From: Acholeplasmataceae bacterium
GTDB taxonomy: Bacteria > Bacillota_I > Bacilli_A > Acholeplasmatales > Acholeplasmataceae
Length of the DNA: 64,000 bases
Reading direction: 5' to 3'
Assembly: GCA_021108415.1 (NCBI GenBank)
Contig: JAIOQX010000006.1
Span: forward strand, 62,001 to 126,000
The notes below the pieces were generated by a model. That model made no database searches. It was not told where the DNA came from and was given only the letters and a program-made list of their open reading frames with translations. The position numbers and the translations under genes are program-made. Shown here piece after piece: positions 56,234-62,865 of the stretch. The stretch's first letter is position 1. Each line of letters begins with the position of its first letter.

Positions 56234-57367
56234 TTAATTTTGTTTTTCTTTATATAGTTTTTTTTGATCATACATCATAAAGTCTAAGTGCTCAAAAAAC
56301 TTATCAATATCTTTTTCGTTTTCCCCATCATAAATACCTTTACCTAAACTAAAGCTCAAGTTAAATGGAAAAGTTTTCTTCTGATTGAATTTATCTAATT
56401 GTTCTTTAATTCTTTCACTAATACCATCAATAATATCATGCTCTTCACTCAGAATAACAACCATAAATTCATCTCCACCAATTCTATAGACACCATCTTG
56501 TTTTCTAACAGATGCTTTTATGATTTTAGAGATAGTTATTAATGCTTCGTCACCTAATTTATGGCCAAACTCATCATTAATTTTTTTAAAGTCATTAATG
56601 TCAATCATCATCCCTGATAATTCAAGCCCTTTTTGTTTATTAGTTTTTAATTGTTTAATAACAAACTCATATTCTCTTCTGTTATAAAGACCTGTTAAAA
56701 AATCTGTGCTTGTGATTTTAGATTGAATATAAATGTATATAATTAAATTGGAAATGATTAAACTATTGAATACAAAATTCATATCTTTGAAAGCAATTAA
56801 AATGATTCCCGAGATTAAAGGTGGAACACTATACAACATTAATGGAATGTACTCTTGTTTTCTTATATATTTTCTATGAAGATAAATATGAATCAATGAA
56901 TAGATAAGTATAACTGAAGCTAGACCTCCTGTGATAAAAAAGAAATCACTTCTAGCAAATACATTTTGATCATTGATACTAAAGATTAAATCATTATTGT
57001 AACTTAAAATAACCAAAATAAAATTAAAAATTATCAATACACCTGGAATGATTGACATCTTTATATATCTTTTACTGTCAGGATTGACCGTAAATTCAAC
57101 ATAATATAACCAAAATAATGCAGCTATCGGTAAAAGTGTATAATATAGCCCAACACTAATATAAAGTGTAATATTTGCAAATAAAGAATCCTGTCCACTT
57201 GTTATGATAATCATTGAGTCTAAAAAAATACATGCAATATTAATCAAAATCAAATGTAAAAAGACCTTATTTAGATATTCTTTCCAATTAAGGTGTCGAA
57301 TTAAGCTGATAAATAAGATTGCTAATATGATGATTGATAATACGTTTTTTTGAATATCAATAAACAT
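56234..57367 (-). CDS. Membrane diguanylate cyclase (GGDEF)
   Basis: A 377-residue protein. The first 215 residues have about seven membrane helices without a recognised sensor name. The C-terminal GGDEF domain (about 220-375) has the catalytic YRIGGDEFMVVI (about 298-309). An intact inhibitory I-site RxxD is present as RKQD, five residues before GGDEF, so feedback control by its product cyclic di-GMP is expected. It makes cyclic di-GMP from GTP. An HD-GYP candidate hydrolase is encoded at 24662-25921. Monocistronic. Confidence 0.92.
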   Translation of the reverse strand: MFIDIQKNVLSIIILAILFISLIRHLNWKEYLNKVFLHLILINIACIFLDSMIIITSGQDSLFANITLYISVGLYYTLLPIAALFWLYYVEFTVNPDSKRYIKMSIIPGVLIIFNFILVILSYNNDLIFSINDQNVFARSDFFFITGGLASVILIYSLIHIYLHRKYIRKQEYIPLMLYSVPPLISGIILIAFKDMNFVFNSLIISNLIIYIYIQSKITSTDFLTGLYNRREYEFVIKQLKTNKQKGLELSGMMIDINDFKKINDEFGHKLGDEALITISKIIKASVRKQDGVYRIGGDEFMVVILSEEHDIIDGISERIKEQLDKFNQKKTFPFNLSFSLGKGIYDGENEKDIDKFFEHLDFMMYDQKKLYKEKQN

Positions 57368-57462: not shown

Positions 57463-58839
57463 TTAAAGGTCATTCATTGCTTTAACATAGGCATTGATAT
57501 CAAATTTTCTCTCTAGACCTTTTGCATTCATATATCTCAGTTTACCAAAGATTTCTCTTTCAGTCCAAGCTCTATCATGTTTACCAAAGCACCATGCAAC
57601 ACCAGCATAACTATTTGGATCTCTACCATCAATAAAATATTTATTATTTAAATAAATAATAGTTTCATATGCTTTCTTAAATGAAGGTGACCATTCAATG
57701 ATTTTTTTCGCCCAATACATCCGCATATAATTATGCATATATCCAGTTAAAACCATTTGTTTCATTGCAGCATTAAAATATATATCATGTGTATCAAATG
57801 TCTCATATGTGTTTAAATCATAAAGATATGCTTTATGATCAAATTCATGTGCGTTCATCGTCTGATATGCCCAGTTTTCACTCATTGTTTCAAACTCATC
57901 ATATCCATTAGTATAAAAGACATAATTGAATGCTAACTCTCTTCTTATTAAGAGTTGTTCTATATATTGATCAAATGATTCTCCTTTGATCTGACCTTGT
58001 TCTAATGCAAGATACAATCTTTCTAATAATTCTAAACTAGATATTTGTCCAAAATGTAGATACATACTCATTAAAGATGTAAAATTTGTAGATGGATCGC
58101 TACTCATCGGATAATAATCTGATTTATCACTTATAAAAGTAGAAAACAATTGAGATGCAGCTTTATATCCACCTTGATAATATGAACTTTTAGGAACTGC
58201 GTGATCAATATCTAGTTTATTCAACAATGCATCAATATCATTTAAGTCATTATCTGAATCTATATTTATTTTTGTCTTATTTTTTATGATATTTAATTTA
58301 TGAAAATCTCTAAATGAATGATAAAGCTTTTTAATTTTGGGTCTAATTGTATAAGCTCCATATTCTGCTTTAGTAGATGCAACACAAACAGGAACAACTA
58401 AATCAGTATCTATCATATCAATTTCTAGATCTTCGTTATCTTTAATTTGGTGAAAAAGATCTTTTCGCCAAGCTCTTTGATGTTTTAAGTAACCTCTATC
58501 CATGACAAGGGCTTGTGCATCTTTAATGTATTTTTTAATCACTTCATATGGTTTACCAAACTTTAAAACAAACGTAATCCCCAACGATTCAAGCGTTTGT
58601 TTAACTTCTTTTAATCCTTCAAGCATAAATGCATAACTTCTCTCATTAGCATCTTTATAGGTATCATCAAGACCAAAAAAACACACAAGCGGTAATTGAT
58701 AAGTATTCGCTGTATGTATTGCATGATTTAATGCGTGATTATAGTGAACTCTTTGGGATTGTTGCATCCAATAAAGCACATATTTTTTATCTGTGTTTAC
58801 TTTTCCATCTTTAATATGAAATAATCTGTTTTTATTCAT
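57463..58839 (-). CDS. phrB: Class II CPD photolyase
   Basis: A 458-residue flavoprotein that splits UV-made cyclobutane pyrimidine dimers with blue light. It begins with YVLYWMQQSQRVHYNHALNHA (two parts, about 21-41), typical of class II enzymes rather than class I (which starts with a W/F...DLR motif), and ends with FIDGRDPNSYAGVAWCFGKHDRAW (two parts, about 407-430), the class II FAD pocket. Residues for electron transfer by tryptophans are plausible but not assigned. It is divergent from a heliorhodopsin gene over 182 bases, a striking partner. Confidence 0.92.
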   Translation of the reverse strand: MNKNRLFHIKDGKVNTDKKYVLYWMQQSQRVHYNHALNHAIHTANTYQLPLVCFFGLDDTYKDANERSYAFMLEGLKEVKQTLESLGITFVLKFGKPYEVIKKYIKDAQALVMDRGYLKHQRAWRKDLFHQIKDNEDLEIDMIDTDLVVPVCVASTKAEYGAYTIRPKIKKLYHSFRDFHKLNIIKNKTKINIDSDNDLNDIDALLNKLDIDHAVPKSSYYQGGYKAASQLFSTFISDKSDYYPMSSDPSTNFTSLMSMYLHFGQISSLELLERLYLALEQGQIKGESFDQYIEQLLIRRELAFNYVFYTNGYDEFETMSENWAYQTMNAHEFDHKAYLYDLNTYETFDTHDIYFNAAMKQMVLTGYMHNYMRMYWAKKIIEWSPSFKKAYETIIYLNNKYFIDGRDPNSYAGVAWCFGKHDRAWTEREIFGKLRYMNAKGLERKFDINAYVKAMNDL

Positions 58840-59021
58840 TTTTCTCCTTTAAATGTTTAAATAACTATGTCTAATTATATTTTAACATATGATATAAAAA
58901 AAATTAAATTTGCTAACCCTGATTTTCTTTATAATTTCTTATTTATAGAGAATGTATATAATTTCCTTTTTAAAAAATGCCATGCTATAATTAAACTATA
59001 AAAAATTGGAGGTTATTTTTA
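58840..59021. promoter_or_regulatory. Divergent promoter region of photolyase and heliorhodopsin
   Basis: For heliorhodopsin: TATAAT at 58986-58991 preceded by TGC (extended -10), then a TTGGAGG ribosome site. For the photolyase on the minus strand: a TATAAT (58890s) and an AAAGGAG site. The -35 boxes are weak in both directions, which suggests that an activator or alternative control is needed. No clear shared palindrome was seen. Confidence 0.5.
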
Positions 59022-59816
59022 ATGGAAAAAACTGCTTTTCAAAAACTGAGAAAATTTAATTTAATTATGGGGGGCATACACTTTGTTCAAGGTGTCTTAA
59101 TGCTTATATTGGCTTCAACAGTGATTCAAACAATTGGTGAATTTAAACCAGTAATCACGCAGAACTTTCTACAATACAATCCAGTAACTGAAACATTGGA
59201 TTTAGTAAGTTCAAATATATTTGAATTACCATTTGGTGTATTTGTTGCAATATTCTTATTATTATCTGCTGGTGCTCATGCACTTATCGCAATTCCTAAT
59301 AAGCTTAATAACAAATACAATGAAGATCTAAAAAAAGGTATTAATCAATTTAGATGGTTTGAATATGCATTAAGTTCATCAGTAATGATCGTCTTAATCT
59401 CAACATTATTTGGTATTTATGATATTGCTTCATTAATTTTAATATTTGTTGTAAACGCAAGTATGAATCTATTTGGTCTCGTTATGGAACAATTAAATTC
59501 AAGACGTGCTGAAGGTGAAAAACTTATCTGGGGACCATTCATCTGGGGTTCTATCGCAGGTTTAGCACCATGGGTAGCAATTCTTCTTTACATGTTTGGT
59601 ACAGGTAATTATGACCAAGTACCTTGGTTTGTATGGGCAATCGTTGGTACATATTTTGTAGCATTTAACACATTCCCAGTTAACATGGTATTACAATATT
59701 TAAAAGTTGGAAAATGGAAAGATTATCTTTACGGCGAAAGAACTTATATTGTTTTAAGTTTAGTTGCCAAAACAATCTTAGCATGGTTAGTTTTATTTGG
59801 AGCTATGCAACCTTAA
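59022..59816 (+). CDS. Heliorhodopsin
   Basis: A 264-residue seven-helix retinal protein of the heliorhodopsin family. The Schiff-base lysine is K250 in helix 7 (LSLVAKTILAW) and the single counter-ion Glu E114 in helix 3 (RWFEYALSSSVMI). Family-specific features are the short N-terminal helix 1 (NLIMGGIHFVQGVLM), a long loop with residues 40-70 between the first two helices, and GEKLIWGPFIWGS near 170. Heliorhodopsins orient with the N-terminus inside, opposite to type 1 rhodopsins, and are light sensors without clear ion pumping. It is divergent from a class II photolyase gene and followed by a tocopherol-cyclase-like gene. Confidence 0.95.
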   Translation: MEKTAFQKLRKFNLIMGGIHFVQGVLMLILASTVIQTIGEFKPVITQNFLQYNPVTETLDLVSSNIFELPFGVFVAIFLLLSAGAHALIAIPNKLNNKYNEDLKKGINQFRWFEYALSSSVMIVLISTLFGIYDIASLILIFVVNASMNLFGLVMEQLNSRRAEGEKLIWGPFIWGSIAGLAPWVAILLYMFGTGNYDQVPWFVWAIVGTYFVAFNTFPVNMVLQYLKVGKWKDYLYGERTYIVLSLVAKTILAWLVLFGAMQP

Positions 59817-59833
59817 TAACATTCATAAAAAGC

Positions 59834-59858
59834 GCTAGGAGATTTCCTAGCCTTTTTT
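59834..59858 (+). terminator. Terminator after heliorhodopsin, abutting the next ribosome site
   Basis: GCTAGGA (59834-59840) and TCCTAGC (59845-59851), loop GATT, then CTTTTTT. The ribosome-binding site of the next gene (AGGAGG, 59861-59866) begins three bases later, so the next gene depends on readthrough. Confidence 0.85.
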
Positions 59859-59871
59859 ATAGGAGGAACTG

Positions 59872-60822
59872 ATGTATTTTAAAAAAATAAAACATCCAGA
59901 ATACTTTCAAGGAAATAAAAAAAAGAATAATTATTTTGAAGGTTGGTATTATAAACTTGTTACTAAAGATAAAAAAACGAGTGTTGCTTTTATACCAGGG
60001 ATTAGTATCAACAAAAAAGATCCACATGCATTCATACAAGTTTTTATATCATCAAATCAAAAACTGATGACACATTATTTAAGATATGCTAGTGATACTT
60101 TCAGTTATAGTCATGATCAATTTATGGTTCAAATAGATACACAGCTTTTTACGAAATCTCAACTAGACCTTAACATTCAAAATGACCAAATAAGCATTTC
60201 AGGTAAGATTCATATAATTGATCATATAGGTTTAAAAACTAGTTTATACGCACCAAATATTATGGGCCCATTTGCATATATACCTTTTATGGAGTGTAAT
60301 CATGGCGTCATTTCGATGCAAGCTCATCTGTCTGGCATTCTTAGAATCAATGGAGAAAAGATTAGTTTTGAAAATGGAAAATCTTATATGGAAAAAGATT
60401 GGGGAAAATCATTTCCAAAAAACTATATTTGGCTACAAACCAATCATTTCAAAGATGAATCAACATCACTCATGTTTTCTTATGCAACGATTCCATTTAT
60501 AGGTCTATCTTTTAAAGGACTTATCGTCAATTTAGTTTATCAACAAAAAGAGTTTCGCTTTTCTACTTATAATATGACTAGAATACTTAAAAAAGAAATA
60601 TTAGATAAGTCCATATATTTCATATTAAAAAAAGGATCGTATAGTCTCCATATTAAAGCTCATAAAGATCAAGAAATCGAACTTAAGTCTCCTTCTTTTG
60701 GTATCATGAATAAAACAATCAAAGAAGGACTATCTGGAGTAGTTGAAATTAAACTCTATAAAAAAAATCAACTCATCTACGAAGATACTGGTTATCAAGC
60801 TGGTATAGAGATTATGATGTAA
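59872..60822 (+). CDS. Tocopherol cyclase-like protein
   Basis: A 316-residue protein of the tocopherol cyclase-like family (PF14249 pattern). YFEGWYYK is at about 22-29, MGPFAYIPFMECNHGVIS at about 130-147 and KDWGKSFPKNYIWLQTNHF at about 176-194, all of which are family marks. Family members in plants cyclise a phytyl quinol; bacterial ones are largely untested and may act on other isoprenoids or lipids. The gene starts 21 bases after the terminator of heliorhodopsin, with no room for an own promoter, so it is read through from the heliorhodopsin promoter. The link to light or retinal is inference. Confidence 0.85.
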   Translation: MYFKKIKHPEYFQGNKKKNNYFEGWYYKLVTKDKKTSVAFIPGISINKKDPHAFIQVFISSNQKLMTHYLRYASDTFSYSHDQFMVQIDTQLFTKSQLDLNIQNDQISISGKIHIIDHIGLKTSLYAPNIMGPFAYIPFMECNHGVISMQAHLSGILRINGEKISFENGKSYMEKDWGKSFPKNYIWLQTNHFKDESTSLMFSYATIPFIGLSFKGLIVNLVYQQKEFRFSTYNMTRILKKEILDKSIYFILKKGSYSLHIKAHKDQEIELKSPSFGIMNKTIKEGLSGVVEIKLYKKNQLIYEDTGYQAGIEIMM

Positions 60823-60837
60823 ATTATTAAATAAAGT

Positions 60838-60871
60838 GGCCACATTCAGCATTGAATGTGGCCTTTTTTTT
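60838..60871 (+). terminator. Terminator of the heliorhodopsin unit
   Basis: GGCCACATTCA (60838-60848) and TGAATGTGGCC (60853-60863) form a perfect 11-bp stem, loop GCAT, then eight T. It may also serve the converging ptb gene. Confidence 0.92.
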
Positions 60872-60881
60872 ATGATTATGT

Positions 60882-61778
60882 TTATGCAATCAGTGAAGCC
60901 AAAGCAATAGAATAAAACTTAGATTCTGTTGTATCTGCTCTAGAAGTTAAAACAATCGGTTTTTTACCACCTACGACAACTGAAGCGCTTTTCGCATCAG
61001 CTAAAAACATCATTGCCTTATAAAATACATTACCTGATTCTATTTGAGGCATTAAAATCATATCTACATCTCCACAAACGTCTCCTTTGACACCTTTGTG
61101 ATCTGCAGCTTCTTTACTAATTGCGTTATCTAATCCAAAAGGTCCATCTACCCTACATCCATTTAATATACCTTCTTGATTTCTCTTAATAAGTTCAATA
61201 GCATCGACAGTAGGTTGCATTTTATCGTTTAGTTTTTCGATTGCAGCTATAATACCTATTTTTGGATTTAATATGCCTAGTTTATGAAATACACTCACAC
61301 CATTTTCAATGATCTCTTGTTTTTCATCTACATCTGGATACATATTCATTGCGCCATCTGTCATCATCAAAAGTTTATGATAATTTTTTAACTCAAATAA
61401 AGATACATGAGATAGTCTTTTATCCCCCTTAAACTCATATTCAGGTTTTAATACAGATTTTAGAATTACTTTTGTATCTACATAGCCTTTCATTAAAACA
61501 TAACCCTCATTTTCACTGGTTAGTTTTACTGCATAATCACAAGCTTTATCATGTTCCATCTCATCAATAATTTCATAATAATCTGAACTAATTGATAAAT
61601 CCTCTAATAACATGATAATGATTTCTTTATTACCAATTAATATGGGTCTGATGATATTTTCTGCTCTTGCTTTTTCTACAGCCTCTAAAACATGTTTATC
61701 ATCAGCACATGCAACAACTAAGGTTTTTAAATCACCTTCTTTTGCTTTAGATACTAATTCTTTCATATTTTTAAACAT
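60882..61778 (-). CDS. ptb: Phosphate butyryltransferase
   Basis: A 298-residue enzyme that swaps CoA on butyryl-CoA for phosphate, giving butyryl phosphate. Family features are the VVACADDKHVLEAVEKA (about 22-38) start, LMMTDGAMNMYPD (about 136-148) and the end with VVVGGKKPIVLTSRADT. Of two tandem ATGs the second (61778) has better spacing to AGGAGG. It lies 10 bases after buk in one operon. With Buk it forms the ATP-yielding end of butyrate fermentation and so completes lysine use in this organism. Confidence 0.93.
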   Translation of the reverse strand: MFKNMKELVSKAKEGDLKTLVVACADDKHVLEAVEKARAENIIRPILIGNKEIIIMLLEDLSISSDYYEIIDEMEHDKACDYAVKLTSENEGYVLMKGYVDTKVILKSVLKPEYEFKGDKRLSHVSLFELKNYHKLLMMTDGAMNMYPDVDEKQEIIENGVSVFHKLGILNPKIGIIAAIEKLNDKMQPTVDAIELIKRNQEGILNGCRVDGPFGLDNAISKEAADHKGVKGDVCGDVDMILMPQIESGNVFYKAMMFLADAKSASVVVGGKKPIVLTSRADTTESKFYSIALASLIA

Positions 61779-61791
61779 CATATGCCTCCTT

Positions 61792-62865
61792 TTAAATATA
61801 TACCTTTGGTTTTTCTTCTTTTCTTAAAACTCTTAATGCACCAAGTGCAAGTGATTCCATTTCATTTTCACCTGCATAAACAACTACAGGAGCGATAAAT
61901 TCAACTCTAGATTTAATGATTTCAACTAACATTTTATTATAAGCTAGTCCACCAGTTAAAATAATCTCATCTACTTTACCTTCTAAGACAGTTGCTTCAG
62001 ATCCAATCTCTTTTGCGATTTGATAACACATCACTTCGAATATAAACTTCGCTTCAATATCTCCATTTTCAATACGAGTAGCAATTTCTTGTCCATCGTT
62101 TGTTTGAAGATATGCGACAAGTCCACCTTGTCCATAATTTTTTCGTTTAATCTCATCTAAAGTATAATCTCCGCTAAATACCATTTTATATAATGGACCA
62201 ATAGGAACAGATCCACTTCGCTCAGGTGACATTGGACCATCACCATCTAGTGCATTATTAACATCAATTACTTTTCCATGTTCATGAGCCGCAACACTAA
62301 TGCCTCCACCTAAATGAGCAATAATTAAATTTAAGTCTTCATATTTTTTACCTAAATCACTTGCTCTCTTTCGAGCTACAGCTTTTTGATTTAGCGCATG
62401 AAATAAACTAGATCTTTTTAATTCAGGAAAACCGGTAAAACGATAATGATCATCCATTTCATCAACAGCTACTGGGTCAACAACAAACGCAGGAATATCA
62501 TAAGGTTTTCCCAGATTTCTAGCTAGTAAGCATCCTAAATTAGATGCATGCTCACCCCTCTTAAATTCCTCCATATCTTTAACCATTAAATCATTAACGC
62601 TATAGGTGCCACTTTCTATAGGTTTTAACATACCACCTCTACCAACAATTGCTGAAAACCTGCTTAAATCAATATGTTCTTTTTCTAAAAAATCAATAAT
62701 AATTTTTTCTCTAAACTGATATTGATCAATAATATGTTTATAAGAAAGTATTTCTTTTGTATCATGGCTAATCTTAAATTCTGATTTTAATACTTCATTT
62801 TCGTATATAGCAAGTTTAGTGGATGTAGATCCAGGATTGATTGCTAAAATTAAATGTTTTTCCAT
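61792..62865 (-). CDS. buk: Butyrate kinase
   Basis: A 357-residue acetokinase-family enzyme that makes ATP and butyrate from butyryl phosphate. It starts with AINPGSTSTKLAIYENE (about 7-23), has IIAHLGGGISVAAHEHGK (about 182-199) and NALDGDGPMSPERSGSVP (about 205-222), all butyrate-kinase marks. Length is as usual (about 355). It lies 8 bases after the M48 protease gene and 10 before ptb. Confidence 0.95.
   Translation of the reverse strand: MEKHLILAINPGSTSTKLAIYENEVLKSEFKISHDTKEILSYKHIIDQYQFREKIIIDFLEKEHIDLSRFSAIVGRGGMLKPIESGTYSVNDLMVKDMEEFKRGEHASNLGCLLARNLGKPYDIPAFVVDPVAVDEMDDHYRFTGFPELKRSSLFHALNQKAVARKRASDLGKKYEDLNLIIAHLGGGISVAAHEHGKVIDVNNALDGDGPMSPERSGSVPIGPLYKMVFSGDYTLDEIKRKNYGQGGLVAYLQTNDGQEIATRIENGDIEAKFIFEVMCYQIAKEIGSEATVLEGKVDEIILTGGLAYNKMLVEIIKSRVEFIAPVVVYAGENEMESLALGALRVLRKEEKPKVYI

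Follow-up and report, generated by a model that had tools for sequence, protein, structure and literature searches.

A photolyase, heliorhodopsin and tocopherol cyclase-like trio in a mollicute

The window analysed in this work is a 64-kb stretch of contig JAIOQX010000006.1 from an Acholeplasmatales mollicute, the genome of which is 1.78 Mb in length with an estimated completeness of 99.85%; a preliminary description of this DNA had correctly regarded the host as mollicute-like. Three adjacent genes are considered here: phr, encoding a class II cyclobutane pyrimidine dimer (CPD) photolyase of 458 aa (57463..58839, minus strand); a heliorhodopsin (HeR) gene encoding 264 aa (59022..59816, plus strand); and a gene for a tocopherol-cyclase-family protein of 316 aa with an AttH/CrtC-like fold, hereafter TOC (59872..60822, plus strand). 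The photolyase and HeR genes diverge from a 182-bp spacer (58840..59021), with a TATAAT-like element just upstream of HeR, and HeR and TOC are separated by 55 bp. This gap contains an intrinsic-terminator hairpin, GCTAGGA-GATT-TCCTAGC followed by a T run (59834..59851, plus strand), immediately ahead of the ribosome-binding site of TOC. The positions of the trio, the residues E114 and K250 of HeR, and the 182-bp divergence are all present in the sequence as the preliminary description gave them.

The HeR is full-length and exceeds the curated cut-offs of both PF18761 (319.9 bits) and the NCBIfam heliorhodopsin model NF038020 (296.8 bits; cut-off 100). Its counter-ion E114, in transmembrane helix 3 within the motif RWFEY, and its Schiff-base lysine K250, in transmembrane helix 7 within LVAKT, both align with those of solved heliorhodopsins. 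The nearest HeRs include Acholeplasmataceae proteins at 87% and 79% identity, one being from the cultured anaerobe Peloplasma aerotolerans; the word rhodopsin does not occur in the paper describing this species.

HeR and TOC form a conserved pair separated by a terminator

Co-occurrence and absence were counted across 160 genomes of the order Acholeplasmatales, many of them incomplete assemblies, with Fisher tests that ignore the phylogeny of these genomes; neighbourhoods were mapped in 78 regions of relatives, and TOC was surveyed in 395 sampled genomes of the class. Working labels of genomes and regions are given in brackets. Judged by gene order, the best-conserved pair is HeR with TOC, rather than HeR with the photolyase. 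Same-strand HeR to TOC adjacency is found in 22 genomes from four genera of the order, including the window, with gaps of 37-71 bp. The order of the two genes is reversed in a fifth genus (G005), and the pair is also found in one genome of another family (G388/L061). The TOC proteins of these pairs are only 53-67% identical to that of the window, and their outer flanks differ. TOC is present in 33 of the 39 HeR genomes of the order, even where the two are unlinked (p about 4e-22 for their co-occurrence). Conservation and co-occurrence together rule out the trio being chance neighbours.

By a single rule, a terminator hairpin was identified in 21 of the 22 HeR-TOC gaps, the remaining gap having a 9-nt loop, compared with 1.8 expected from shuffled gaps, and with 17 of 71 other same-strand gaps of similar size in the mapped regions. 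The stems vary through compensatory changes that keep the pairing (GCTAGG/CCTAGC, GCCAGG/CCTGGC, ACTAAG/CTTAGT and GGCCGG/CCGGCC), and the pair in the other family (L061) also has a terminator. Where no TOC lies behind HeR, a terminator was found in 11 of 17 and 32 of 71 cases; where no HeR lies upstream of TOC, none was found, except in one genome (G038) in which the contig ends inside a HeR. Hence the comparison indicates that the hairpin is HeR's own terminator, with the TOC ribosome-binding site immediately behind it. As this leaves little room for a separate promoter behind the hairpin, TOC transcripts most likely read through it, and partial read-through would probably keep TOC below HeR, which would be made in excess.

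The trio resembles a reduced form of a larger island

In relatives, the trio is part of a more extensive island, in which CrtI, CrtB, a 221-aa membrane protein, DUF92 and phr follow one another, divergently from HeR and TOC. The island CrtI scores 441 bits against TIGR02734 (cut-off 238), and CrtB is a PF00494 protein, for which the best NCBIfam model is phytoene synthase, with a score under the cut-off of that model. The 221-aa protein has a weak PF01148 signal, and its model resembles CDP-DAG (cytidine diphosphate-diacylglycerol) synthetase (Foldseek probability 0.99, E 0.03), of the CTP-dependent transferase superfamily that also includes VTE5 and dolichol kinase; labelling it VTE5-like is correspondingly a modest claim. 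DUF92 is the family to which plant VTE6 belongs. The functions of VTE5 and VTE6 have been described previously (PMC8054155).

The island is complete in four genomes (G027, G028, G030 and G077), and in another with a broken HeR (G042). CrtI and CrtB are gone from the islands of G029, G031, G038 and G041, and only photolyase, HeR and TOC are present in the window, G022, G025, G026, G037, G039, G040, G044 and G075. Other islands pair the photolyase with TOC, with HeR elsewhere in the genome (G023 and G024), or the photolyase with HeR, without TOC (G078 and G079). The full, partial and minimal islands are distributed across four genera (g1, g10, g12 and g14). In family f4, TOC is divergent from CrtI-CrtB-VTE5-VTE6, with no HeR between them (G150, G152, G153 and G154), and in g14 the island additionally contains a DASH cryptochrome (396-435 bits) and DPRP, a photolyase-related protein. 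Therefore the neighbourhood is retained in relatives, where CrtB, CrtI, prenol-kinase-like genes, the cryptochrome and the photolyase-related protein all add to the light- and photodamage-related character first attributed to the cluster.

The TOC tree requires at least five changes in whether the genome has a phytoene synthase, and at least six in whether TOC adjoins HeR. As carotenoid-bearing forms are spread over this tree and f4, the simplest reading, preferred on parsimony, is that the minimal islands most likely arose through loss of carotenoid genes. The direct adjacency of photolyase and HeR, which the preliminary description had pointed out, is hence genuine but probably secondary: four genes lie between them in full islands, and the 182-bp spacer of the window is probably a by-product of the loss of these four carotenoid and prenol genes.

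The island HeRs themselves belong to two distinct clades, a single clade being rejected by the approximately unbiased (AU) test (p 2e-6). The g14 island HeR (tested in G084) shares 72-78% identity with a HeR type found outside the island in G023, G045 and G150, compared with just 54% for the window HeR. Hence a HeR beside TOC and the photolyase/carotenoid genes was either acquired twice or replaced in place. This bears on whether the neighbourhood could instead be a horizontally moving cassette, or one that is merely inherited, lacking any shared function, such that TOC would be an unrelated lipid enzyme behind HeR. HeR trees mix phyla, which indicates that HeR moves often, and both the recurrence of the HeR-TOC pair in another family and the terminator between the two genes would fit such an origin. 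However, the pair persists despite the divergence of TOC and of the outer flanks, members of two HeR clades are found in that one position, and TOC accompanies HeR in most genomes even when unlinked, making this explanation unlikely.

Several related arrangements were also observed. Three g14 regions (L194, L197 and L198), from incomplete assemblies of only 0.6-1.0 Mb, encode a class II photolyase, DASH cryptochrome, DPRP, CrtI, CrtB, a HeR of a different lineage, and TOC. In Erysipelotrichia (L043-L044), CrtB, a VTE5-like protein and DUF92 are followed, several genes on, by HeR and directly by an ABC1/UbiB-type kinase and CrtI, with contig-truncated forms of the same arrangement in L042, L045 and L047. 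A second HeR lineage is found outside the island (L149, L151, L172, L186 and L205), adjoining a MATE efflux transporter in G023 and G024, and an uncharacterised protein of similar size (448 aa) in G034 and G045; a third lineage is shorter (L153, L173, L178, L184 and L195). HeR genes are broken by stops or frame changes at G003:C8, G006:C36, G042:C14, G120:C67 and G148:C1, and these genomes, G120 excepted, still keep the photolyase and carotenoid genes, suggesting that HeR loss is under way.

TOC is a predicted enzyme associated with isoprenoid genes

TOC matches PF14249 (Tocopherol_cycl) with 79.9 bits (gathering cut-off 26.6) over residues 130-314. Its AlphaFold2 model, made from 9 sequences, is all-beta, with a predicted local distance difference test (pLDDT) score of 81. 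The best Foldseek match is AttH (2ich, E 1e-9), with further matches to the pericyclases (Diels-Alderases) Fsa2, Phm7 and CghA, kievitone hydratase, and a 25-phosphosteroid lyase; the viral fold homologues comprise one giant-virus protein of unknown function. The residues E23, K28, H52, Q56, E141, E174, K175, Q189, N191 and E285 are kept even in distant members, and this set of conserved polar residues is more in keeping with an enzyme than with a passive carrier. Double-bond protonation has been proposed as the mechanism of CrtC, which has also been modelled on AttH (PMC4717167). CrtC shares the two-barrel AttH-like fold (PMC4717167; PDB 2ich), and TOC has a carotenoid context in relatives, although the resemblance is one of fold only, and the family match of TOC is of the tocopherol-cyclase type. 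The catalytic set of CrtC is His-Trp-Tyr-Asp (PMC4717167).

Every TOC of families f1 and f4 is in a genome that also has HeR or CrtB, with three exceptions, of which two are at contig ends (G032 and G036) and one is a 141-aa fragment (G149). In G272 (L274), TOC, a VTE5-like gene and a VTE6-like (DUF92) gene form one operon, with no carotenoid or light genes nearby. Together with the divergent f4 arrangement, this ties TOC to isoprenoid chemistry, although the reaction that it would catalyse is predicted from its fold and gene neighbours only.

The source of retinal

In the 160 genomes of the order, neither of the retinal-forming families BCD and RPE65 gave a match above cut-off; of the lycopene cyclases, CrtYcd was absent and CrtY was not convincingly detected. 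The single BCD match was below the cut-off and contained stops, and the PF05834 matches listed covered almost only the 36-residue Rossmann start. Therefore endogenous retinal production by known enzymes is ruled out across the order. A side opening in HeR has been proposed as an entry route for external retinal (PMC9385722). Hence, as no known retinal-forming enzyme was found and HeR has such an opening, retinal is probably scavenged from the environment.

It is conceivable that TOC instead replaces the missing retinal enzymes, and makes, tailors or loads the HeR chromophore, through closure of the retinal ring or the hydration or isomerisation of a retinoid, or else acts on an antenna carotenoid. 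Were this true, the internal terminator would set the ratio of receptor to enzyme in these wall-less bacteria. The lack of those enzymes order-wide is in keeping with such a role, as are the persistence of TOC alongside HeR in 17 genomes without a phytoene synthase, and a fold common to hydratases and pericyclases, some of which act on polyenes. Against it, TOC is widespread in the class without HeR nearby, most HeRs elsewhere have no adjacent TOC, nor do two within the family (G078 and G079), and how a C40 carotenoid would be converted to C20 retinal is left unexplained. We therefore consider this role quite improbable.

The relationship between photolyase and HeR

By far the best model for the window photolyase is the class II phr2 family TIGR00591 (460.8 bits over residues 2-453), with 90.9 bits for PF00875, and the protein aligns end to end with the Methanosarcina mazei class II photolyase (E 3e-89), from which its residue deviations are family-wide and uninformative. 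Its score is below the curated TIGR00591 cut-off of 550, which is exceeded in no genome of the order and may not suit Acholeplasmatales photolyases; the class II assignment therefore follows from similarity to solved class II enzymes, not from this cut-off.

The linkage of HeR to photolyase is itself already known from Trichococcus, as the preliminary description noted. The Trichococcus flocculiformis TfHeR binds the photolyase TfPHR with a KD of about 22 uM, increasing repair about threefold, and its loop residues R162 and K227 were reported to be needed for this binding (PMC9769723); photolyase is also one of ten frequent groups of HeR operon neighbours (PMC11109279). Hence HeR could be a regulatory helper, physically bound to the class II photolyase and allowing it to work under green light as well, with TOC being incidental. 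The co-occurrence of HeR and class II photolyase in the order is strong (p ~2e-22), the window enzyme is likewise of class II, and by precedent a link of HeR to the photolyase in this organism is plausible. In both systems, a monoderm bacterium encodes HeR close to a class II CPD photolyase, but the Trichococcus genes are reported to share an operon that also includes DUF2238 (PMC9769723) among others, whereas in the window the photolyase is divergent from HeR and outside its operon, HeR being followed by the terminator and TOC; in full islands, the photolyase is four genes away. The window HeR has basic DE and FG loops, although the G-K-W-K motif of the FG loop, with its lysines, is shared by almost every HeR whether a photolyase lies nearby or not, and the longer basic DE loop tracks clade rather than photolyase linkage, in a comparison made among sequences other than that of Trichococcus. 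The binding-site residues of TfHeR are consequently not discriminating as a predictor of photolyase binding. HeR is also found without a class II photolyase in G033, G034, G035 and G120, none of which is a complete assembly. A helper role for HeR is thus possible, though we hold it only tentatively.

Flanking genes

Behind phr on the same strand, after a 95-bp gap, lies a gene for a membrane GGDEF protein, a diguanylate cyclase with an intact GGDEF motif (56234..57367, minus strand; PF00990, 115 bits), which may be a further member of the cluster. HeR might then pass a light signal to cyclic di-GMP via this protein, as GGDEF and EAL domains have been noted near HeRs before (PMC8612252), and the same arrangement behind phr is seen in G022, G023, G025, G026, G040, G078 and G079. 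However, the GGDEF gene is not beside full islands, and in G023 it is paired with the photolyase although no HeR adjoins them, leaving such signalling very unlikely. Cyclic di-GMP signalling in a mollicute would nevertheless be of interest in itself.

On the other side, a strong hairpin terminator 3' of TOC (60838..60863) is usable from both strands, and is followed by phosphate butyryltransferase and butyrate kinase genes (60882-62865, minus strand), an ordinary fermentation pair. No riboswitch or known RNA was found in the region with Rfam, up to E = 1, and no operator common to the divergent photolyase-HeR spacers of relatives was obvious by eye, in the absence of a formal motif search.

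Discussion

We interpret the trio as a reduced form of an ancestral Acholeplasmatales sunlight-protection island, a reading to which we assign a probability of about 0.5. It builds on results that were computed directly, namely the gene identities, the conservation of the island, the lack of any known gene for retinal formation or lycopene cyclisation, and the HeR-TOC terminator. Firstly, the ancestral island would have lost its four carotenoid and prenol genes in the lineage of the window, leaving the photolyase, HeR and TOC. Secondly, HeR would take up environmental retinal and work as a light sensor, with the photolyase repairing UV dimers. Thirdly, TOC would be a soluble enzyme with the AttH/CrtC/tocopherol-cyclase fold, acting by protonation of a double bond in an isoprenoid or polyene and by addition of water or ring closure; its substrate may be the carotenoid or prenyl chain of the pathway in relatives, and an imported carotenoid or retinoid in the window organism. 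Fourthly, the hairpin would pass only part of the transcripts, such that the membrane chromoprotein HeR would be in excess over the catalytic TOC.

Several points weigh against this interpretation. Phytoene synthase (PF00494) and DUF92 are lacking from the window genome, as is any CrtI over the cut-off, ruling out an intact carotenoid pathway in this organism. The similarity of TOC to PF14249 lies mainly in its C-terminal half. TOC-like proteins are present in 89 of the 395 class genomes (23%), mostly with neither HeR nor carotenoid genes nearby; hence TOC is not strictly HeR-specific, and its core reaction need not concern light. Finally, the carotenoid genes could have been gained repeatedly by transfer, although this is less parsimonious than loss.

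The sunlight-protection island is similar in part to other HeR neighbourhoods. In Thermoplasmatales archaea, Znf-HeRs are also flanked by carotenoid genes and a DNA photolyase (PMC8612252), although these HeRs have an N-terminal zinc-ribbon and the locus contains a lycopene cyclase, whereas the mollicute islands are without the cyclase, and add TOC, DUF92 and the VTE5-like gene. The 2024 survey of HeR operons includes a photolyase group, and DUF2177, which it places beside HeR, is also beside HeR in L033, but the word 'tocopherol' is not in its main text (PMC11109279). Families of the plant vitamin E genes are represented in both the full island and G272, as TOC is in the VTE1 family, DUF92 resembles VTE6, and the 221-aa protein is akin to VTE5. 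However, the likeness is one of gene family, the island having phytoene synthase and desaturase alongside, and no claim of tocopherol production is made. Heliorhodopsin was not found together with either tocopherol cyclase or Acholeplasma in the searchable literature, which excludes most subscription papers. Nor were the HeR-TOC module, its terminator or the mollicute VTE and carotenoid island found there.

The function of most heliorhodopsins is unsettled, and the source of retinal in anaerobic or carotenoid-less hosts is open; the island bears on both questions. TOC is a defined, recurring gene partner of HeR, for which relatives provide a natural series of losses, from the full island to forms without carotenoid genes, without HeR or without TOC, and as the trio-bearing P. 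aerotolerans is in culture, the partnership is directly testable. The island also brings together, in the mollicutes, kinases resembling those of prenol salvage, the desaturation of carotenoids, UV repair and a light receptor.

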